From an uncultured Clostridia bacterium (GTDB lineage Bacteria; Bacillota; Clostridia; Oscillospirales; Ruminococcaceae), in the NCBI GenBank assembly GCA_947510165.1, contig CANNSB010000009.1, forward strand, positions 1 to 52,353: DNA of 52,353 bases, read 5' to 3'. The position numbers and the translations under genes were made by a program. The notes under the pieces are model-generated. The model was not told the origin of the DNA and searched no databases. It worked only from the letters and a program-made list of their open reading frames with translations. Shown here piece by piece: positions 103 through 52,207 of the stretch; the stretch's first letter is position 1, and each line of letters begins with the position of its first letter.

Positions 103-950
103 ACAAATTCAAACAATTTATACAAGAAAAAACAGCTGATTTCAAAGAAAATACCACCAAAACATTAACTAAAAACACCTCAAATTATTACTATTTTTTC
201 TTTCTAATCGTCATAATAATATCCATATTTTTTCTAACATCCAGAATGTTTTTAGAGGATAATTCTATTATAAAAAGTACAAGTTTAGATCAAAGTTATA
301 GCCTGAATTCCACCACAAAACTAACCCTAACTGATTGGATTTATAACGAGAAAAAACAATTTATGCTGGCTAAAATCACCCTAGAAGATGTGAATTATAA
401 CTATCAATATGACCTTAATTTTAACGCAGTATCAAAGGTAAATCCATCGGAAAAACTTCCAGTAAAAATCGTATATAAACGACTGGATAGGTACTATATT
501 TTGATAGAAAATATACCTGAAAATTATGGGCAAATCTCCCTTAGAATCCACCAAACATTCGATAATAAAGAGGAGGAAAACATACTGAAAATTTATGGTG
601 ATAACCGAGAAATGAAGATTGATAACAGTGTGAAAATCAAAACCCAAGAGGAATATCATCTTGAAGAGGCTAAACTGGAGATAGAAAAAAGCAAAGAAAA
701 ACAACAAAAATTAAACGAGGAAAACACAAAATATCAAAACCAAATCGATAGAATAGACAATATTATACAGCAACTTTTAGACGATAAAAAGTATAAAACA
801 AACGAGGAGATAAGGCAGATTGACGAACAGATAATTCTAAAGGAAAAAGAAAAAGACACCATAAAAAGGAAGATAGAAGATAACAAAAACCTTTATCTTG
901 TAGAGGAAAAAGAAATAGAATCATTAACTAAACAGCTAGAGGAAAGTTAA
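99..950 (+). CDS. Membrane-anchored protein with outer domain and C-terminal coiled coil (element cargo or transfer gene)
   Basis: I do not recognise the family. The protein has 283 residues: a short basic cytoplasmic N-terminus, one transmembrane segment at about residues 31-48, a beta-strand-like region at about 60-170, and a long charged coiled coil at about 185-280 rich in Glu, Lys and Gln. The start is TTG at 99, preceded by a perfect AGGAGGTG eight bases upstream and overlapping the stop of the M23 peptidase gene (ATTGA). Tight coupling to a wall hydrolase in a mobile element suggests a role at the cell surface during transfer, but this is inference from position. It ends just before the oriT-like region. 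Confidence 0.75.
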   Translation: MNKFKQFIQEKTADFKENTTKTLTKNTSNYYYFFFLIVIIISIFFLTSRMFLEDNSIIKSTSLDQSYSLNSTTKLTLTDWIYNEKKQFMLAKITLEDVNYNYQYDLNFNAVSKVNPSEKLPVKIVYKRLDRYYILIENIPENYGQISLRIHQTFDNKEEENILKIYGDNREMKIDNSVKIKTQEEYHLEEAKLEIEKSKEKQQKLNEENTKYQNQIDRIDNIIQQLLDDKKYKTNEEIRQIDEQIILKEKEKDTIKRKIEDNKNLYLVEEKEIESLTKQLEES

Positions 951-2119: not shown

Positions 2120-3232
2120 ATGGCGATAATATCGGGAGTAATCCTAAAGAGTAAATTCATACAATCAACAGGAAAAGAGTTTAGTTCATATATAGATTAT
2201 ATTGACCGAGAAACTGCTGTGCGTAATGATATGTATAGCAGTTTTTCTTTGTATAACGAGTATATGTTAAACTCAGAAAAATCATCAGGGCTGTTCACAG
2301 ATACAAAAAATAGTTTAACTTCAGAAGAGATAAAAATGTTAAAACAATCTTTTGAAAAATCACAGAAAAAAGGCTCTCTTATGTGGCAGAATGTTATCTC
2401 TTTTGATAATCGTTGGCTAGAGGAATTAGGTGTGTATAATAGCAAAACTGGATATATTGATGAGTCTAAAGTTAGAAATATAACCCGACTTTCCACAAAG
2501 GAAATGCTTGATAAAAAAGGAATGATATCCTCATCAATCTGGTCGGCATCAATCCATTATAATACCGATAATATTCATATTCACATCGCAATTGTTGAGC
2601 CGAATCCAGTTACAAAAAGAGGGATGATAAAACAAAAAGATATGGAAAAGATGAAATCAAAAGTAGTAAATAATCTGTTGGATATCTCTAAATCTCACGA
2701 GAAGATAAACCAACTTATTCGAGAAGATATTATTAAAAAAAGAAGTTCAAACTTATTTATAAAAGATATAGAATTAAATAAAATATTTAAAGAGATCCAT
2801 AAAAAACTCCCTGAAGATAAAAGAATGTGGAATTACAAGATGAACGGGATAAAAGAGATAAGACCACTGATAGATAAACTATCAGCGGTCTATATTTCAA
2901 CCTATCACAAGGAGGAATTCTCACAGCTAAAAAAGATACTGGAAGAAAAACAAAAGGAATATAATAAGGCTTATGGAAAGAGTGATAAAAACTTTGTGAA
3001 TACAAAACTAGACGACCTTAATACTAGAATGGGAAACTCTATCTTAAAAGAAATTAAAGAGTATGATAAAAATCTTAAATTAGAGAAATACGACAAAAAC
3101 AAACAAGAATATAACCCTGTTTCAAGGATGAAAAATTCTTTGAAAAAAGATTTTAAAAAATCAAAAAATCAACATGAATTTGAGAAACTTCAAAGAGAAT
3201 TATCTGGAGAGATTGAGATAAATTTTGAATAA
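2120..3232 (+). CDS. MOBL / MobP2-type relaxase
   Basis: A 370-residue relaxase, the enzyme that nicks oriT and leads the cut strand into the recipient. Features of the Firmicutes MOBL (pLS20-like, MobP2) family are visible: YIDYIDR at residues 24-30 with candidate catalytic Tyr, SSGLFT near 55-60, SLMWQNVISFDN near 86-97, and the metal-binding histidine motif HYNTDNIHIHIAIVEP at 146-161 (H153, H155). The C-terminal 170 residues are helical and highly charged, as usual. The start has a strong AAAGGAG. Length is close to the family norm, and I see no break, so it should be functional. No coupling protein (VirD4) is in the window; it may lie to the left, beyond the M23 gene. Confidence 0.9.
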   Translation: MAIISGVILKSKFIQSTGKEFSSYIDYIDRETAVRNDMYSSFSLYNEYMLNSEKSSGLFTDTKNSLTSEEIKMLKQSFEKSQKKGSLMWQNVISFDNRWLEELGVYNSKTGYIDESKVRNITRLSTKEMLDKKGMISSSIWSASIHYNTDNIHIHIAIVEPNPVTKRGMIKQKDMEKMKSKVVNNLLDISKSHEKINQLIREDIIKKRSSNLFIKDIELNKIFKEIHKKLPEDKRMWNYKMNGIKEIRPLIDKLSAVYISTYHKEEFSQLKKILEEKQKEYNKAYGKSDKNFVNTKLDDLNTRMGNSILKEIKEYDKNLKLEKYDKNKQEYNPVSRMKNSLKKDFKKSKNQHEFEKLQRELSGEIEINFE

Positions 3233-3723: not shown

Positions 3724-4471
3724 ATGAAATTTTTTACGATGTCTAATAATATCTTTAACATAAATCTAACCCCAAATGAATTTTTAGTATACTCATATCT
3801 TTGTTTTAGACAAGGACAATCCCATAGTATAATTCTTAAAACTAAACTTATTGGAACAAAATTAAACCTAACAAGACCGACTATTTTAAAAGCTATTAGC
3901 GGTCTTATATACAAAAATTTAATTACCAAAAAAAAAGAGATATACATCTGATGGATATCTCCTTGCTAGCAGATATATAGTTAAAAATAATATCCATATA
4001 ACCAGATTTTTTAAGATACCAACTTTAATATTTAATATAAAAATAAAAGCTGTAGACTTTAAGATCTACAGCTTTATTTTAAAATGTATGGATGATTTGG
4101 GAGAGGCGTTCCCTTCCCTTTCTAGTATTTCTAAACATATAAATATCTCTAGAAGTCGAGTTGCAAAAGGGATTAAATTTCTTAGAGAAGAGTCTATTTT
4201 ATCAAGAGAAAAAAGACTTAAACTAGATAAATCTCATAAACAAAATAAATATACAATAGCTCACAAAAGTATAGCAACAACAAGGTTTTATCCCAGTCCA
4301 AAGAAAAATAAAGAAGAAAAAATATCACATAAATTGATTAATTTTTATTTCATTTATAGAAAATATTTATACATATCTATATTCTATCTTATATATTTAA
4401 AAGGGGTGGTGTTTATTTTTTACAACTACTTACTAACCCACTCTTACTTACTTCTAATACAAAAAGAATAA
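3724..4471 (+). pseudogene. Tandem winged-helix, replication-initiator-like protein, frameshifted at A9
   Basis: Two open frames join into one protein of about 249 residues if one base is gained or lost at the run of nine A at 3928-3936. The first frame (3724-3951, strong AAAGGAG site) gives 75 residues with a winged-helix pattern (NLTPNEFLVYSYL, then LNLTRPTILKAISGLIYKNLI). The second frame stays open from the A run through 4087, with FFKIPTLIFNIKIKAVDF, and into a second winged helix (FPSSLSSISKHINISRSRVAKGIKFLREE pattern near 4109-4195). That is the layout of plasmid and integrative-element initiators with DnaD/RepA_N-like winged helices. The last 50 residues are hydrophobic and unusual. 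Either the gene is broken, or slippage on A9 makes the full protein. A perfect 11-bp hairpin lies inside it at 4046-4075. Confidence 0.6.
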
Positions 4472-4577: not shown

Positions 4578-5426
4578 ATGTTACATAATACAATAAATTT
4601 ATATGATTGGATTAGTATATGGCTTGAGACATATTCAAAAATTAAAATAAAGGACTCTACATATACAAATTATCTATATTGCTTTAAAAAAATTAGAAAA
4701 TATATTGAAAATAAAAATATAAAAGAAATACAAGAAATAGAACTACAACTATCAATAAATAGAATGGCTATAGATGGTATGTCAATGTCATATATAAAAA
4801 AAATAATTTTAATCTTTTCTTGTTCATTTTCAAAAGCATATAAAAATAATATTGTTAACTTTAATGTTGCAGAAGATTTAACCCTACCATTCACTAAACA
4901 ACCAAAAAAAATAATATCATTAACTATTTCAGAACAAAAAAAGATAGAACAATTCTGTGAAAATTCTCTTTTAGGATATTTAATTATATTTTTATTAAAT
5001 ACAGGATTAAGGCGCTCTGAATTAATTGATTTAAAATGGGAAAATTATAATGAAAAAAATCAAGAAATATCTATAGTTAAAAGTAAAACATCGTCAGGGG
5101 TAAGGATTATTCCATTACTACCAATAACTAATAATATTATTAAAAGACAAGACAAAATTAATGAATATATATTTAATAATACTAAAAAAAATAAAATAAC
5201 AGCATCATGTTTAAAAAAACTTTTAATTAGAATACGTAAAGAAACTAATATATATATAACAAATCATATATGTAGACATACGTTTGCAACTCGCTTATGC
5301 GAGTTAGGTGCAACATCTAAAACTGTATCTACAATATTAGGACACTCTACAGTTAATTTTACTTTAAATAACTATGTAACATCAAATACAGAACAATTAC
5401 ATAAAGAAATAAGATTATTAATATAA
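4578..5426 (+). CDS. Tyrosine-type site-specific integrase
   Basis: A 282-residue tyrosine recombinase that cuts and rejoins att sites to integrate or excise the element. An N-terminal SAM-like core-binding domain spans about residues 1-105. The catalytic domain shows R145 (NTGLRRSEL), a beta-hairpin lysine at K170, H230-x-x-R233 (NHICRH), H256 (LGHS) and the nucleophile Y266. All catalytic residues are present, so it should be active. It is shorter than ICE integrases of the Tn916 type because it lacks an arm-binding domain. It is the last element gene before tRNA-Lys, as expected for insertion in a tRNA 3' end. The gene is very AT-rich. No excisionase gene is seen in the window. Confidence 0.92.
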   Translation: MLHNTINLYDWISIWLETYSKIKIKDSTYTNYLYCFKKIRKYIENKNIKEIQEIELQLSINRMAIDGMSMSYIKKIILIFSCSFSKAYKNNIVNFNVAEDLTLPFTKQPKKIISLTISEQKKIEQFCENSLLGYLIIFLLNTGLRRSELIDLKWENYNEKNQEISIVKSKTSSGVRIIPLLPITNNIIKRQDKINEYIFNNTKKNKITASCLKKLLIRIRKETNIYITNHICRHTFATRLCELGATSKTVSTILGHSTVNFTLNNYVTSNTEQLHKEIRLLI

Positions 5427-5455: not shown

Positions 5456-5484
5456 TTGACATAGTTAAATAATCATGTTATATT
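5456..5484 (+). promoter_or_regulatory. Consensus sigma-A promoter for the structured RNA
   Basis: TTGACA at 5456-5461, a 17-base spacer, and TATATT at 5479-5484. Only one position differs from the full consensus. No ORF with a ribosome site follows before the terminator at 5648-5698, so the promoter serves a non-coding transcript starting near 5491. Confidence 0.8.
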
Positions 5485-5490
5485 AATTTT

Positions 5491-5698
5491 AAAGATTTGT
5501 TTTTTATAAATAAAAAAACCCCCACAGTTTAATATTGTTAATCAGACAATATTAAACATACGCTTTACAAGATGTTTAACAGCAACATCATATAAAACTT
5601 GTGAGAGTTTGTTCTGCCGTTAATTATAACGGTTTTACATATAACTGTCAAGAGTTTATAGATGATCTGGTTGGCATCTGTAGGCTCTTGATTTTTTT
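5491..5698 (+). ncRNA. Undescribed structured RNA of about 208 nt between integrase and tRNA-Lys
   Basis: The transcript runs from a consensus promoter to a clear intrinsic terminator and carries no plausible ORF. Its structure can be read directly: a U-rich/A-rich hairpin near 5498-5518, an unpaired CCCCCACA stretch, a perfect 11-bp hairpin (5527-5537 with 5547-5557, loop of 9), a two-part hairpin ACAAG..GATGTT/AACATC..CTTGT (5567-5602), a 6-bp hairpin CCGTTA/TAACGG (5617-5632), and a terminator stem. I tested it mentally against tmRNA, RNase P, SRP RNA, 6S RNA and T-box hallmarks and found none. It may control integration, copy number or transfer of the element, or belong to the chromosome. 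Function is unknown. Confidence 0.7.
5648..5698 (+). terminator. Rho-independent terminator of the structured RNA
   Basis: Outer stem TCAAGAG/CTCTTGA (5648-5654 with 5685-5691), inner stem TATAGATG/CATCTGTA with one G-U pair (5657-5664 with 5675-5682), then seven T at 5692-5698. The branched, GC-containing stem and T tract are typical of an intrinsic terminator. Confidence 0.85.
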
Positions 5699-5904
5699 GA
5701 AATCTTTTCTAAAATTGAATAAATTTAATAAACTTTAAATACTCAAACATATTAGTTTTGCCACAACTTACATTAAGCTACAACTTATTGTAACGAGCGA
5801 ACCTCTGTTAAAAGAGACAATACATACCAAGAGTTCTATAAGTGCAGTATTGCGAATATGTGAGGTATAGGAATATAAAGTTTAAGATAAATTGTTAATA
5901 AAAA
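5699..5904. other. Intergenic stretch without a recognised gene
   Basis: I find no ORF or known RNA here. An 8-bp direct repeat ACAACTTA occurs at 5763-5770 and 5780-5787, 17 bp apart. It could be an integrase or excisionase arm site near the attachment end, or chance. Confidence 0.4.
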
Positions 5905-5939
5905 ATATTGGGTTAAGTTTATATAAAATAAACCTAACC
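5901..5939 (-). terminator. Terminator of tRNA-Lys
   Basis: A 12-bp stem with one G-U pair (5911-5922 with 5928-5939, loop of 5). Read on the minus strand it comes just after the tRNA 3' end and is followed by a short spacer and a T tract (A run at 5901-5905 on the plus strand). Confidence 0.75.
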
Positions 5940-5951
5940 GAGTATTTTAAA

Positions 5952-6027
5952 TGGTGAGCCACCCGAGACTCGAACTCGGGACCCTTTGATTAAAAGTCAA
6001 ATGCTCTGCCAACTGAGCTAGTGGCTC
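5952..6027 (-). tRNA. tRNA-Lys (anticodon TTT)
   Basis: The reverse complement folds as a full cloverleaf: acceptor stem GAGCCAC/GTGGCTC, D arm with AGCTCAGTTGGCAGAGC, anticodon stem TTTGA/TCAAA with anticodon TTT, T arm with GGGTTCGAGTC-type sequence (CCGAGTTCGAGTCTCGG), and encoded CCA. The gene is intact. Its 3' end (5952) points at the integrase-bearing element, so it is the probable integration target, with the 3' portion of the gene serving as the att core. Confidence 0.95.
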
Positions 6028-8885: not shown

Positions 8886-9013
8886 CCCAACTTTTAAATA
8901 ACCAACAGCTTAATACACAATTATAATTAAAAAAACAATTATTGTAAAGAAAAATACATTATATTATAAACTTTAATAAACTTAACCTTAAGTTATAGTT
9001 TATAATGCCCTAT

Positions 9014-9091
9014 TTACAGTTGATTATTAATTATATCAATAGTTTTTAATAATTTTTTCAATAAATACTTGTATATTACAGCTGTTTATTA
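9014..9091 (+). promoter_or_regulatory. Twin operator-like motifs upstream of gap
   Basis: Two copies of TTACAG(T/C)TG(A/T)TTATTA, at 9014-9029 and 9076-9091, match at 14 of 16 positions and lie 62 bp (about six helical turns) apart. The second overlaps the spacer of the likely gap promoter. This is a typical layout for a repressor that loops DNA. The regulator is unknown. Confidence 0.45.
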
Positions 9092-9097
9092 TAGAAT
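9069..9097 (+). promoter_or_regulatory. Probable promoter of gap
   Basis: TTGTAT (9069-9074), a 17-base spacer, and TAGAAT (9092-9097), about 37 bases upstream of the gap start. Two mismatches in the -35 and one in the -10 make this a moderate match. Confidence 0.5.
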
Positions 9098-9118
9098 AAA
9101 ATCAAATTTAACTTATAG

Positions 9119-10153
<1,035 letters not shown>

Positions 10154-10154
10154 A

Positions 10155-10190
10155 TATAAAAAAAACAAGCTATAATGCTTGTTTTTTTTA
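10155..10190 (+). terminator. Terminator of gap
   Basis: Stem AAAAAACAAGC with GCTTGTTTTTT around loop TATAAT (10171-10176), followed by the T tract at 10183-10189. It begins right after the gap stop codon. Confidence 0.9.
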
Positions 10191-10213
10191 TATCTATTTA
10201 TTTTAAAAACCTA

Positions 10214-10242
10214 TTGACATATTTCAATATTCATTATATAAT
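10214..10242 (+). promoter_or_regulatory. Perfect sigma-A promoter of the tRNA-Met/tRNA-Glu unit
   Basis: TTGACA (10214-10219), a 17-base spacer, and TATAAT (10237-10242): an exact consensus. It lies 33 bases before tRNA-Met. Confidence 0.9.
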
Positions 10243-10274
10243 ATAAAAGGTTTCTGGTGCTGGATATGTAATAT

Positions 10275-10351
10275 GGCGGTATAGCTCAGTTGGCTAGAGC
10301 ATGCGGTTCATACCCGCAGTGTCGTTGGTTCAAATCCGACTACCGCTACCA
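10275..10351 (+). tRNA. tRNA-Met (anticodon CAT), elongator type
   Basis: Cloverleaf with acceptor GGCGGTA/TACCGCT (G-U at the outermost pair), anticodon stem TGCGG/CCGCA around loop TTCATAC, T arm with GGTTCAAATCC, and encoded CCA. The three G-C pairs at the base of the anticodon stem that mark initiator tRNA are missing, so elongator Met is preferred. A lysidine-modified tRNA-Ile (CAT) cannot be fully excluded by eye. Confidence 0.9.
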
Positions 10352-10380
10352 TTATCTCATTGTCTTAAATTTATATATTA

Positions 10381-10455
10381 GGCCCGTTGGTCAAGCGGTT
10401 AAGACACCGCCCTTTCACGGCGGTATCACGGGTTCGATTCCCGTACGGGTCACCA
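10381..10455 (+). tRNA. tRNA-Glu (anticodon TTC)
   Basis: Acceptor GGCCCGT/ACGGGTC, D arm TTGGTCAAGCGGTTAAGAC, anticodon stem CCGCC/GGCGG around loop CTTTCAC, T arm with GGTTCGATTCC, and encoded CCA. It follows tRNA-Met after 29 bases and shares its promoter and terminator. Confidence 0.95.
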
Positions 10456-10457
10456 TC

Positions 10458-10497
10458 TAGCTCTCTAAAGCAATAGCTTTAGAGAGCTATTTTATTT
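10458..10497 (+). terminator. Terminator of the tRNA unit
   Basis: A 14-bp perfect stem (10458-10471 with 10476-10489) around loop AATA, followed by TTTTATTTG. It starts three bases after the CCA of tRNA-Glu. Confidence 0.9.
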
Positions 10498-10526
10498 GTT
10501 ATATTTCAAATAAGATAGCTGTTTTT

Positions 10527-10736
10527 TCGACAATATCCATCTTAAAAATATGATAAAATCGTCTTGTAGATATCGTGTTATACTTATAAGCTTAAGACTT
10601 GTGACATAAATAAACCAATACGCCTATCTACATAAAGTTTAATACTATGACATTTAAAAATACAAGTCTACATCCTCACCATAAGTTTATCTGTATAAAA
10701 AAGGAGCTACTATAATTTTATAGTAGCTCCTTTTTT
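10527..10736 (+). ncRNA. Candidate small RNA between tRNA-Glu and murC
   Basis: A promoter-like TCGACA-16-TATGAT (10527-10532 and 10549-10554) precedes about 170 bases without an ORF, ending at the strong terminator 10703-10736. Inside, TGTAGAT (10565-10571) can pair with ATCTACA (10626-10632), and GACTTGT (10596-10602) with ACAAGTC (10662-10668). The two helices interleave, as in a pseudoknot. The terminator is also needed by murC on the other strand, so it is not independent proof. The RNA feature starts in practice near 10561. Confidence 0.4.
10703..10736. terminator. Bidirectional terminator downstream of murC
   Basis: A perfect 13-bp stem (10703-10715 with 10718-10730) with six T after it on the plus strand and an A run (10697-10702) before it, which gives a T tract on the minus strand. 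It ends murC and possibly a plus-strand small RNA. Confidence 0.9.
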
Positions 10737-10744
10737 ATACAATT

Positions 10745-12148
10745 CTACCCTTGATCCACCATCATCCTACCAGCTAGATAAACATTTCCACATCCAATAG
10801 TTATAACTATATCACCTTTTTTTATACTACCTTTAATATAATTTGATATACTTCTAAAATCATCTATGATTTTTCCTTTATCTAAAAGTTTGACAAGATC
10901 ATCAGAATATATATTATAGGTATTTTTCTCTCTCCCTCCCATAATCTCTGTAAGTATAACCTCATCAGCAAGGTTTAAAACATCGGCAAAATCTTTTAAT
11001 AAATTATAAGTTCTAGAATATGTGAAGGGTTGGAAAACAACTCGTATTCTTTCAGGGTTTAGCTTTTTTAAAGATTCTATAGTCATCTTAATTTCTAATG
11101 GATGATGAGCATAATCGTCCATTATTATCCCCTCGTTTACTCTACCTAGAAATTGGAACCTTCTGGAAACACCATCAAAATTTTCCAAATTTTTCTTTAT
11201 AATATCAAAATCTACACCTAAAATATCACAACAAGCTATACTAGCCAAACAATTTAAAACATTATGATTTCCTAGCATATTTATCTCTAAACTTTCAAAT
11301 TTTTCTCCATTTTTAAACAGGTCAAATGATGTTTTTCCAATATTTAAAGATTGAATGTTTTCTGCATAATAAACACAGTTTTTTCCAAATCCAAATGTAA
11401 TTATTTTCCTTTTATAATCTTTTGATGCTTCTAATGTATTATAATCATCCCCGTTGATAATAATACAATCAGTTGTATCTTCACAAAATTTAGAAAAAGA
11501 TTTTATTATATTTTCTAAACTTTTAAAATACTCTAGATGATCTTCATCGATATTTAAAATAATTGATATATTAGATTTTAATTTTAAAAATGTGTCAGCA
11601 AATTCACAAGCCTCACACAAAATTGTTTCTGGAAGAGACTCATTTAAATATTTTTGTTGGTTTAAAGGCTTTATAATCATCTGGCTATTAAACTTAATCT
11701 GATTTCCACCGATAATTGTTATAGGTTTAACATTTGATTTATTTAGAATTTGAGAAATCATAGATGATGTTGTAGTTTTTCCGTGGGTTCCACTAACACA
11801 TATAGATTTTTTAAAAAGTGTTGTTATAATTCCCAAAACTTCGCTTCTTTCTAATATATCTATATTATTTTCCCTAGAAAAAACCAGTTCTATATTATCC
11901 GACATAATCGCCGCAGAATATATAACAAGATCTGACCCTTTTACATTTTCAATACTATGTCCCTTAAAAACTTTTATTCCTAAATTTTCTAAAAATATAG
12001 TATTGTCATTTATAATTCCATCAGACCCTGTTATATAAATACCCAAAGAATGCAAAAATTTTGCAATAGGAAACATCCCCGATCCACCTATTCCTATAAA
12101 ATGAAGATGTTTTTTCCCGTTTAGAACAGTGTCTTTTATTAATTTCAT
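10745..12148 (-). CDS. murC: UDP-N-acetylmuramate--L-alanine ligase
   Basis: Adds L-Ala to UDP-MurNAc with ATP, the first amino acid step of peptidoglycan stem synthesis; cytosolic. The 467-residue length is normal. The N-terminal UDP-binding motif HFIGIGGSGM is at 16-25, the ATP P-loop GTHGKTTT at 119-126, the central domain carries NIDEDHLEYF, and the C-terminal domain has MDDYAHHPLE. Ribosome site TGGAGTGG precedes the ATG. It is divergent from spoVG with about 140 bases between, and monocistronic by its flanking terminator. The region upstream is extremely AT-rich. Confidence 0.97.
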   Translation of the reverse strand: MKLIKDTVLNGKKHLHFIGIGGSGMFPIAKFLHSLGIYITGSDGIINDNTIFLENLGIKVFKGHSIENVKGSDLVIYSAAIMSDNIELVFSRENNIDILERSEVLGIITTLFKKSICVSGTHGKTTTSSMISQILNKSNVKPITIIGGNQIKFNSQMIIKPLNQQKYLNESLPETILCEACEFADTFLKLKSNISIILNIDEDHLEYFKSLENIIKSFSKFCEDTTDCIIINGDDYNTLEASKDYKRKIITFGFGKNCVYYAENIQSLNIGKTSFDLFKNGEKFESLEINMLGNHNVLNCLASIACCDILGVDFDIIKKNLENFDGVSRRFQFLGRVNEGIIMDDYAHHPLEIKMTIESLKKLNPERIRVVFQPFTYSRTYNLLKDFADVLNLADEVILTEIMGGREKNTYNIYSDDLVKLLDKGKIIDDFRSISNYIKGSIKKGDIVITIGCGNVYLAGRMMVDQG

Positions 12149-12605: not shown

Positions 12606-14049
12606 ATTTTATAAAAGTTTTTAAAGAAGCTATAACTTTTTCTACATAATCTCTATCAACCATAAAGAACATCTTATCATTTAAAATCAAAGAGACTTCC
12701 CTATCATTTACTTTGTATAATTTTATTGTATCAGAAGAGAGATCTTCTTTTCTGTAAGAATATTTTATACTAGCCAATAATTTCCCAACTGGATTTTGTT
12801 CTACACCAGATATTATTGGAATAAAAGCTATCTCTTTAAAAAATTCATCAAATTGATTAAGATCAAATTTTTTATCCTCTATATATGCAGAAATATTCTC
12901 ATCTTCCCCTTCTATCTTAAATTGATAATCTTTTCCATCAAGTCCAAAATTTATAGCAGAAATTTTATCTAAAGATGGGATAAATATATTCTTTTTAATT
13001 AATTCTTTAACAGATAAATTTATCCAAGGAAGTCGACTAGAGATAACTTCATAGACAATATCAGTCCCAACAACCATCACATAATAAAATTGATCTTCTA
13101 GATGAGAGTGTCCATGATTGTCTACACCTTGTTTAGATTCTAACCTACTACCTATAACTATTTTATGTTGTTTCCCCTCTACAGTGAATACAACCTCTGC
13201 TGTTGGAGATTTAAAACCATATTCTTTTTTATCCAAACTTTGTTTCCCATAGTCTGCAATATAATCTGATTTTAAATCTCCATTCGGTAAGATAAATTGA
13301 ACTGCTGTATTCTCTAAAAAAGAACTATACGGAGCAGTTAAAATATAGTTTATCTTTTCATCAGATTTATCTTCTAAACTTTGTTTATTAGTTTCTATAT
13401 TTATTATATCTTTTTGATCTTTATTTTTTATAGATATCTTGGTGAAGATAGACGGGTCAATATCTCCATCTTTAGATGGATATTTTAAAAAAACATCTGA
13501 TATAAAATCTTTTTCATCCACCATAATTTTCTCTATATCTTTTACTTTTACAAGCTTTATATCCTCAGAATCAGAGGTTTTTAGATAATATCCACTATTA
13601 TCTACCGCCATATTCCCTATATTTATATCCAGTTTTTTTCCATCTTTATAACTTATCGAGATATCATATTTTGAAGGAGAAAGACCAAAATCTTTTATAT
13701 CAGATATAGAACTTTTAGAAATTTCTTTATAGGAAGATAGAGACAACAATGATTCTATAAAATTTGTATATCTATCTTGATTTTTATCAAAACTACTAAT
13801 TTTATCTATTTCAAAATTTCCCATATCATCCTTTTCTATTATAAAAGATGAACTATCTTTTTGTTGTTTATCTATAACTGATATTGAAGACACATCCTCT
13901 TTAGCTATATCAACTATCTTAACTACAGGTTGATCTAATGATGATGATGTATCAGAATTGTCTGTATCTATAATATTTAATACAAAAATTCCAGCTAATA
14001 AAACTAAGAAAATTATACTTAATATTATTATGGACTTTTTTTTATCCAT
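12604..14049 (-). CDS. DUF4340 domain protein of Gld-type ABC system
   Basis: A 481-residue protein with one N-terminal membrane anchor (about residues 5-27, hydrophobic after KKK) and a large outer part with repeated DUF4340-like units (SSISVID.., YKDGKKLDINIG, KQHKIVIGSRL). DUF4340 proteins accompany GldG-type proteins in ABC-2 clusters across Clostridia and Bacteroidetes; their biochemical role is unknown. It starts 2 bases after the gldG-like stop, so the coupling is tight. It contains a His-rich HGHSH stretch near residue 315. It is the last gene of its operon. Confidence 0.85.
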   Translation of the reverse strand: MDKKKSIIILSIIFLVLLAGIFVLNIIDTDNSDTSSSLDQPVVKIVDIAKEDVSSISVIDKQQKDSSSFIIEKDDMGNFEIDKISSFDKNQDRYTNFIESLLSLSSYKEISKSSISDIKDFGLSPSKYDISISYKDGKKLDINIGNMAVDNSGYYLKTSDSEDIKLVKVKDIEKIMVDEKDFISDVFLKYPSKDGDIDPSIFTKISIKNKDQKDIINIETNKQSLEDKSDEKINYILTAPYSSFLENTAVQFILPNGDLKSDYIADYGKQSLDKKEYGFKSPTAEVVFTVEGKQHKIVIGSRLESKQGVDNHGHSHLEDQFYYVMVVGTDIVYEVISSRLPWINLSVKELIKKNIFIPSLDKISAINFGLDGKDYQFKIEGEDENISAYIEDKKFDLNQFDEFFKEIAFIPIISGVEQNPVGKLLASIKYSYRKEDLSSDTIKLYKVNDREVSLILNDKMFFMVDRDYVEKVIASLKTFIK

Positions 14050-51397: not shown

Positions 51398-52207
51398 TTA
51401 CATCGTTACATAATTTGTTAAACTTTTTTTCAACTTTTTAACTATATTTGCATGAATTTGACAAATTCTTGATTCACTAACCTCTAAAACTTTTGAAATT
51501 TCTTTTAATTTTAATTCTTCATAATAGTAGAGAGAAACTATTATTCTCTCTCTCTCTGTAAGTTTATCTATACTTTCTGCCAAAATCATTCTTAGTTCTT
51601 GATCATCCATCCTTGATTCTGGCATATCATCACTCTGTGCAACATTGCTTTTAATTTCTATCCCATCACTTAATTTGTCTGTCAAAATTTGCTCAAAAGA
51701 CAGGATGTTTACACTATTTGTTTCAGACAATTTTTTTGTATATTCTTTTTCGGTCAAGTTTAGATCAGTTGCAATTTCTTTTGTTGTTGGATCCCTATTT
51801 AAATCAAGTCTAAGTCTTGTTTCCACCTGATCTATATCTTTAGAAAACTTTTTAACCCTTCTTGGAACCCAGTCTTGTTTACGAACATAATCAATTATTG
51901 ATCCTCTTATTCTAATAGTTGCATATGTCGAAAATTTTGTGGATTTATCAAGGTCATATTTATTTATTGCATCTATTAGAGTTATAACTCCTTCATTTAT
52001 TATATCATCCACATCCGCAAACTGCTTATATATTCCTCTTAATTGTAGGGAGATGCATTTAACTAGATAGGTGTATTTTAATATTATTTTGTTCCTTATG
52101 GCGGGATCGTTTGTTTCCTTATACGTTTTCCATAAATACTCTTCTGTTTCTACACCCTCGTCTACACTTTTATCTTTATAATTTATTTTTTCATTTTCAA
52201 TAGCCAT
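51398..52207 (-). CDS. RNA polymerase sigma factor, FliA/WhiG (sigma-28/SigD) type
   Basis: A 269-residue group 3 sigma factor. Region 2 (about 38-105) has YTYLVKCISLQL, DVDDIINEGVITLIDAINKYD and FSTYATIRIRGSIIDYVRKQDW, followed by the hallmark WVPRRVKK of FliA/WhiG proteins. Region 3 lies at about 115-165, and region 4 at about 215-265 with LKEISKVLEVSESRICQIHANIVKKLK. In Clostridia this factor directs flagellar, chemotaxis and autolysin genes and usually ends a flagellar operon. The upstream flagellar genes are outside the window. ATG start is preceded by AAAGGATAG and directly abuts a TAA of a 12-codon frame upstream (52208-52246). Confidence 0.93.
   Translation of the reverse strand: MAIENEKINYKDKSVDEGVETEEYLWKTYKETNDPAIRNKIILKYTYLVKCISLQLRGIYKQFADVDDIINEGVITLIDAINKYDLDKSTKFSTYATIRIRGSIIDYVRKQDWVPRRVKKFSKDIDQVETRLRLDLNRDPTTKEIATDLNLTEKEYTKKLSETNSVNILSFEQILTDKLSDGIEIKSNVAQSDDMPESRMDDQELRMILAESIDKLTERERIIVSLYYYEELKLKEISKVLEVSESRICQIHANIVKKLKKSLTNYVTM

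Follow-up and report, generated by a model that had tools for sequence, protein, structure and literature searches.

Organization of the locus

The window (the whole 52,353-nt stretch of DNA that was analyzed) carries on its plus strand a MobL/MobP2 relaxase gene (2120–3232; PF18555, 2e-97; NF041498, 1e-100), a two-domain winged-helix (HTH_36/DnaD_N) gene that is broken in the window (3724–4471), and a tyrosine integrase gene (4578–5426; PF00589, 2e-24), whose product is 44% identical to the integrase of a related element, G794a. The region at 5456–5698, called the module here, comes next. Beyond it lie a conserved non-coding tract (5740–5890, plus strand), a palindromic hairpin (5902–5948) that is terminator-like for the tRNA strand, and tRNA-Lys (ttt) on the minus strand (5952–6027). 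The hairpin adjoins the 3′ end of the tRNA, as hairpins in relative loci also do when inspected by eye. The 3′ 45 nt of the tRNA (5952–5996) are repeated on contig C15 of the same genome (G000).

The contig of the window (C9) and contig C16 overlap by 55 identical bases, and the two together encode VirD4 (CD1115) and pLS20_p028 family proteins above the cut-off and a VirB4-like protein with a score below it. Contig C15 is tied to C9 only by its copy of the 3′ part of tRNA-Lys and is assumed to contain the other element end. The features of a tRNA-targeting ICE are present in these pieces, namely the integrase, the relaxase, T4SS genes, and the tRNA 3′ repeat at both ends. The locus is best explained as the control module of a conjugation-type element that integrates at tRNA genes, placed at the element end nearest the tRNA.

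In all eight copies from the same genus, the module is preceded by the last codons of the winged-helix gene, and in two of them (L011 and L034) a 268-aa gene on the opposite strand lies beside the module. At two loci with winged-helix homologues (L073 and L078), no analogous module was recognized directly behind the gene. The winged-helix protein was considered as an initiator; its single-sequence fold is poor (mean pLDDT of 47) and was not used, and no credible solved relative of the protein was found.

Convergent RNAs in the module

The module was originally predicted to encode a single plus-strand structured RNA, free of ORFs and of no known family. The near-consensus promoter in that prediction is present as TTGACA-N17-TATATT at 5456–5484 (plus strand, 11/12 consensus match). 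This pattern has one match in the whole window, compared with 0.20 expected, and occupies the same site in 6/6 intact same-genus copies. The sense leader RNA would extend over 5491–5698, or about 208 nt if terminated, with its start placed from the promoter and its end from the T-run; by itself, it also folds with a z of −6.1. The predicted hairpins are also present, as is the terminator (5648–5698, plus strand) with its fold and seven T (5692–5698). The fold energy of 5456–5698 is −61.5 kcal/mol, compared with −37.7 ± 3.9 kcal/mol for shuffled sequences (z = −6.1; 0/200 shuffles as good). No ORF of note is found in 5456–5698, and no conserved small ORF was seen on the plus strand in the same-genus copies that were read. 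The module of the window has no match in Rfam release 15 at gathering score, and its sub-threshold matches (microRNAs, a snoRNA, and sul1) are taken as chance.

The description as a single plus-strand RNA does not hold. On the minus strand, TTGACA-N17-TATAAT at 5623–5651 matches the consensus at 12/12 positions, as it does in 6/6 intact same-genus copies; the perfect pattern occurs three times in the whole 52-kb window, compared with 0.10 expected. This motif would serve as a convergent promoter, from which an RNA antisense to the leader would be made. The predicted antisense (countertranscript) RNA is 105 nt long (5512–5616, minus strand), with a terminator hairpin at 5527–5557 and a T-run at 5518–5512; the covariance-model match covers 5513–5616. 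It folds with a z of −6.9, and its length is 103–105 nt across the six intact same-genus copies. The best reading of these motifs is that the module consists of two convergent RNAs, a plus-strand leader and a minus-strand RNA across the middle of the leader, and that the plus-strand RNA looks like the leader targeted by the minus-strand RNA.

Copies and relatives of the module

The window's own genome has four copies of the module, beside tRNA-Lys, -Tyr, -Leu, and -Gln. Two more genomes of the genus contribute four further copies; the relatives are metagenome-assembled genomes (a Clostridia and an Oscillospiraceae bacterium). Two of these four copies, in G002:C34 (~525–620) and G002:C24 (~51800–51895), share a deletion in which the plus −10 region and the antisense terminator were lost and a long near-perfect palindrome was left. 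The six intact same-genus copies are counted with the decayed copy in G000:C1 and the contig-edge pieces in G001 (C7 and C41) left out.

Family- and class-wide searches were made with strict filters on evenly drawn samples. A first covariance model of the minus-strand RNA matched 8/248 genomes of the taxonomic family, five of them outside the genus, and a second model matched 19/397 sampled genomes, in 14/126 genera of the family. The second model matched 1/392 genomes of the class, namely the window's own and none other. For the alignment, cmsearch was given 34 loci, which do not include every genome matched, and returned 36 matches. One of these is the opposite strand of L077, and the other 35, from 16 genomes and 12 genera, are counted here. 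A sense hairpin with a T-rich tail is found in 34/35 of these loci, compared with 4.1 expected (tolerant finder, letter shuffles); an earlier terminator finder, which gave 35/35, was too loose and was replaced. The best promoter site reaches at least 9/12 in 21/35 loci on the plus strand and in 26/35 on the minus strand, both raw counts without a null.

When the window and 20 relative loci were compared with Rfam, only tRNA and rRNA appeared at gathering level, in line with the prediction of an RNA of no known family. Further sub-threshold matches (Thr leader and plastid UTRs) are taken as chance. Large ornate RNAs such as ROOL, considered on account of the tRNA adjacency, were rejected, as no Rfam match was obtained. 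Plasmid, phage, and viral collections gave no match. In G265, the antisense module is duplicated in tandem (L102, 8967–9064 and 9211–9309), and the target loops of the two copies are identical.

Strand of the covarying fold

In an alignment of five distinct same-genus sequences (A1), 36 pairs have 99.4% of their cells paired, and two-sided change is found in 7 of them, compared with 0 or 1 when the partners are slid. A same-genus count over 37 pairs gives 182/185 paired cells on the minus reading and 157/185 on the plus reading, the number on the plus reading being smaller because G-U pairs turn into C-A. Among the 35 matches, two-sided change is found in 32/35 pairs and in 248 cells, compared with 28–45 cells with the partners slid, in an alignment that was fitted to the covariance model, which favors the structure, and that is retained in the slide control. 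In the same alignment, 1131/1201 cells (94.2%) are paired on the antisense strand and 982/1201 on the opposite strand. All 36 rows give 259 two-sided-change cells, compared with 63 in shuffles. The antisense terminator hairpin itself has two-sided change in 5/12 pairs in A1 and in 12/12 pairs in A5. Judged from these alignments, the covarying conserved fold is that of the minus strand. The compensating changes in the stems that the original prediction called for are strong, but they favor a fold on the minus strand over one on the plus strand.

The strand assignment bears on the reading in which a plus-strand sRNA controls the integrase or the relaxase through an exposed C-rich loop. The module does adjoin the integrase in the window, and the plus leader folds well. 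However, the C-rich stretch, CCCCCACA (5519–5526), is not simply exposed, being the complement of the conserved terminal stem of the antisense RNA. The integrase adjoins 1/8 same-genus copies, that of the window alone, so that the hairpins do not travel with the integrase and a link between module and integrase is rejected. A plus-strand sRNA alone was dropped as the main reading because pairing and covariation favor the minus strand, and control of the integrase or the relaxase by such an RNA is regarded as highly improbable.

A related possibility is that the minus-strand RNA works by itself on other mRNAs, as a regulatory sRNA or a type I antitoxin, with the plus leader incidental. The compactness of the antisense RNA and its separate promoter suit such a function, but the sense terminator accompanies this RNA in the same 34/35 loci and a plus promoter is present in many of them. 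Nor was a conserved small plus-strand ORF recognized in the same-genus copies that were read. We consider this explanation quite unlikely.

Position of the module beside tRNA genes

A tRNA gene on the opposite strand, with its 3′ end facing the module, is located 158–994 nt downstream in 28/35 matches, in which the two tandem G265 copies share one tRNA. Three of the seven loci without a tRNA offer less than 1 kb of sequence to search, giving 28/32, and one of the four remaining loci bears a tRNA fragment. The tRNAs are of many isotypes. As a control, 25 stretches from elsewhere in six of these genomes were examined, and 0/1750 positions in them show this adjacency; the stretches held no tRNA at all, and therefore the control shows rarity only. 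The module accompanies the end of the element that is nearest to the tRNA.

Left ends were found for 1/11 elements in one search and 1/5 in another, with one element in both. In the remaining 13/15 elements, the left end was not found within 25–96 kb upstream. The first delimited element, G794a, is 69.8 kb long and is associated with tRNA-Lys and a 49-bp exact repeat. Its integrase gene, like that of the window, comes after a related winged-helix gene, and the first genes inside its left end encode a RepA_N initiator, ParA, and ParB. The second, G778, is 52.9 kb long, and its 137-bp exact repeat spans a complete tRNA-Ala and a portion of another tRNA. A minus-strand integrase gene and then parA and parB lie inside its left end. 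Just outside this left end is a decayed module (G778:C1:21984–22080), as though this tRNA had already served an earlier element.

The first gene across the junction of the window's element encodes a protein of 231 aa; it is truncated by the contig end in C15 and whole in C1. In G000:C1, a broken integrase gene comes first across the junction. The window's own genome also contains a pair of RepA_N genes that score identically and are separated by 49 kb (G000:C7:31227–31448 and 80038–80259). By eye, one of them is preceded by a relaxase-like remnant, and the covariance-model searches gave no module match on this contig.

Several other genes near copies of the module were observed. In L009 (G000:C3), an 850-aa ORF (9188–11740, minus strand) lies beside three 36-nt CRISPR-like repeats (~9010–9160; gttttagtacc...ggtctaaaac). 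It has what we take to be an RxxxSH-like HEPN motif, has no Pfam, NCBIfam, or PADLOC match, and may represent a compact CRISPR effector on the tRNA-Tyr element. Repeats of the form taaccg...gacgatta follow small hydrophobic ORFs in L009 (~13500–13700), in L012 (~600–820, minus strand), and upstream of RepA_N in L171; by eye, these ORFs and repeats resemble type I toxin-antitoxin loci. Ku and LigD-like genes and UmuC-like polymerase genes, named by eye from the sequence, recur at distances of up to several kb from the module in genera other than that of the window (L073, L095, and L129 in G053, G116, and G794, respectively). A short tandem-repeat coding region with PPVAPPVYGFLDGC units is located at a contig end in L010 (9209–9559).

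Variation of the target loop

The variable target (recognition) loop lies at 5577–5584, where identity is 51% among the five same-genus sequences. Among the copies fetched, 35/36 within-genome pairs have distinct target loops, and the exception is the tandem pair in G265. The median identity of within-genome pairs is 0.50 in the loop and 0.96 in the stem. The C2 copy, whose RNA is equal to that of C17, was left out of these loop counts; with C2 included, the count is 37/39. A YUNR motif occurs in the antisense loop in 20/35 loci and is uninformative.

Antisense RNAs that control copy number commonly combine conserved stems with variable loops. The loop differences may also be due to neutral drift. 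A role of the locus in control was originally proposed from its position. The position next to the attachment site, at one end of the element, stands, and control of copy number or of entry of a second element is still the best guess, whereas the suggested association with the integrase is not supported. Each copy could perhaps use the module to sense and limit elements of its own kind.

Predicted attenuation switch

Folding of the nascent leader of the five distinct same-genus sequences predicts that a segment inside the antisense target, 5586–5607 in the window (plus strand), pairs with the 5′ arm of the terminator with a probability of 0.71–0.92. This value is reached by 0, 0, 0, 0, and 1 of 300 leader shuffles. 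The segment is thus a predicted pre-emptor (antiterminator). If pairing of the 5′ arm with every upstream base is counted, the contrast is smaller, with 1, 9, 24, 22, and 45 of 300 shuffles as high. When the region covered by the antisense RNA is blocked, the terminator forms with a probability of 0.91–0.98 in the same-genus sequences.

At equilibrium, the terminator probability in the free full-length leader is 0.36 for the window and 0.89–0.99 for the other four same-genus sequences, and in three of these four the terminator dominates once its 3′ arm is nearly out. Since the terminator wins at equilibrium in these four sequences, the modeled switch must be kinetic, with the pre-emptor acting during transcription.

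Across genera, a cruder test gives a median pre-emptor probability of 0.63, compared with 0.32 for shuffled sequences. The value is above the shuffled mean in 21/27 loci, and at most 3 of 60 shuffles are as high in 8/27. The stricter finder used in this test detects no terminator in 8/35 loci. Outside the genus, blocking the antisense region raises the terminator probability by more than 0.1 only in L134. These models predict a pT181-like attenuator in the window's own genus and a weaker one elsewhere.

A switch of this kind would work as follows. The plus promoter would make the leader, in which the emerging segment 5586–5607 would hold the 5′ arm of the terminator and permit read-through. 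The strong convergent promoter would make the antisense RNA of about 105 nt across 5586–5607, and pairing with it would let the terminator at 5648–5698 form and stop the leader. The probable role of the antisense RNA is to shut off a leader RNA on the tRNA side of a family of integrating mobile elements.

Conserved tract downstream of the attenuator

In the integrated form of the window, there is no gene between the attenuator and the tRNA. This interval contains the conserved non-coding tract (5740–5890), of which 5746–5890 is 97% identical within the genus and the core, 5823–5873, can be aligned to other genera. The tract of the window folds at chance level (z = −0.2 on the plus strand and −0.7 on the minus strand). 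In four relatives chosen by eye, 11/32 pairs covary on the sense strand, compared with 0–3 when slid, and 120/127 cells are paired on the sense strand and 107/127 on the antisense strand; the structure was derived from these same four sequences. The tract may function in antitermination, as an origin, or in integrase binding.

The first of these roles corresponds to an attenuator that controls a processive antiterminator RNA resembling canT of Tn916, the tract being needed by the operon to get past terminators at the junction. The order of promoter, end RNA, junction, terminator, and operon is as in the available part of the Tn916 report (PMC11658703), the sense strand covaries in the four sequences, and a further terminator is read ahead of repA in G794a. 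Against this, the likeness to canT is one of layout, the structure comes from the very sequences in which it was counted, and the window's own tract folds no better than chance. This role is put forward tentatively, as a plausible minority view, and it is compatible with the main explanation given below, not opposed to it.

If the tract is instead the origin, the locus would be a ColE1-like RNA-only origin, in which the plus RNA is the primer precursor, the antisense RNA its inhibitor, and no rep gene is regulated. A conserved and structured tract, the lack of a gene before the tRNA, the failure to find RepA_N in 14/19 module genomes, and parAB at both delimited left ends would suit such an origin. 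However, a T-run terminator inside the leader, found in 34/35 loci, suits attenuation; one delimited element (G794a) does have RepA_N; and tract types vary between genera by eye. An RNA-only origin is therefore considered unlikely.

Operon across the junction and proposed circuit

Our main explanation is that the module is a countertranscript attenuator that is cut from its target operon by integration, to which we give a probability of roughly 0.64. In the excised circle, read-through would continue through the second structured RNA tract, cross the attachment site, and enter the operon at the opposite end. Such an operon would be rep-parA-parB in one delimited relative (G794a) and parA-parB, after a reverse-oriented integrase gene, in the other (G778). 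Integration would sever the leader from the operon and leave the antisense gene intact; an integrated copy could therefore act in trans on a matching circle. The sequence itself shows the antisense fold, its placement, the loop variation, and motifs for promoters and terminators, whereas the switch is modeled and the transcripts, the attenuation, and the target are inferred. Observations that count against this explanation include the equilibrium folding of the other four same-genus leaders, the weaker pre-emptor across genera, the hairpin adjoining the attachment site, and the further terminator ahead of repA in G794a.

The target operon may differ between elements. We infer the target, which may be element-specific, because left ends were found in only 2/15 elements, RepA_N is present in only 5/19 module genomes, and the 231-aa protein encoded first across the window's junction has no family match. 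RepA_N as a general target is unsupported for the same 5/19 reason.

The attenuator may also be part of a split replicon with RNA immunity, in which integration disconnects the switch, excision reconnects it, and each integrated copy goes on producing an antisense RNA that silences circles of the same loop type, whether incoming or excised. This extension is doubtful, though worth considering. If it is true, loop diversification would let several such elements share one genome. Should the effect in trans be real, it would account for the coexistence of several related elements in a 1.3-Mb genome and for the way in which they might exclude each other by RNA.

The covarying antisense RNA family is a marker for one end of tRNA-integrated elements within a single bacterial family and provides a sequence handle for finding them. 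The arrangement suggests plasmid-style antisense copy control in integrative elements, with the attachment site inside the circuit.

Comparison with known systems

Among the titles and abstract openings of part of the open-access papers found, none concerned an integrative element with an antisense attenuator at one end. Several of the closest systems are plasmid-borne. According to the accessible part of PMC5703833, RNAI/repC of pT181 and RNAIII/repR of pIP501 are countertranscript attenuators, and the pT181 antisense RNA is 87 nt long. The module resembles them in an antisense RNA countertranscribed from the leader, in a pre-emptor (as in pT181, and weaker outside the window's genus), and in an induced terminator after the target, all of which are predicted here. 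Unlike in these systems as described there, the attenuator of the module is not followed by a rep gene in cis, and the attachment site separates the leader from the operon; the module also has no Rfam match. In pSK41, the same partial source places an antisense RNA, RNAI, upstream of a RepA_N rep gene, as would be the case in the G794a circle. However, RNAI is proposed there to act on translation, and RepA_N was found in only the minority of module genomes noted above.

The Anti-Q/prgQ system of pCF10, as far as it is covered by the available text of PMC6540685, likewise has a convergent promoter whose antisense RNA brings about termination before a mobile-element operon, as would occur here. 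In contrast to it, the module leader has no recognized coding sequence and the element integrates at tRNA genes.

Two integrative elements should also be compared. Tn916, in the part of PMC11658703 available, has a promoter and a structured RNA near one end (Porf7-canT) and a terminator (T1) just inside the other, and this other end is transcribed after circularization; in the same part, "antisense RNA" occurs only in a reference title. The difference in the module is that a predicted antisense attenuator precedes the tract. At the int promoter of ICEKp1 (PMC13023037), transcription depends on the integration state, as is proposed here; judging from the title, that system is a promoter switch for the integrase gene, unlike the module. 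The module would therefore be a variant of countertranscript attenuation, in which the attenuation itself is predicted from sequence.
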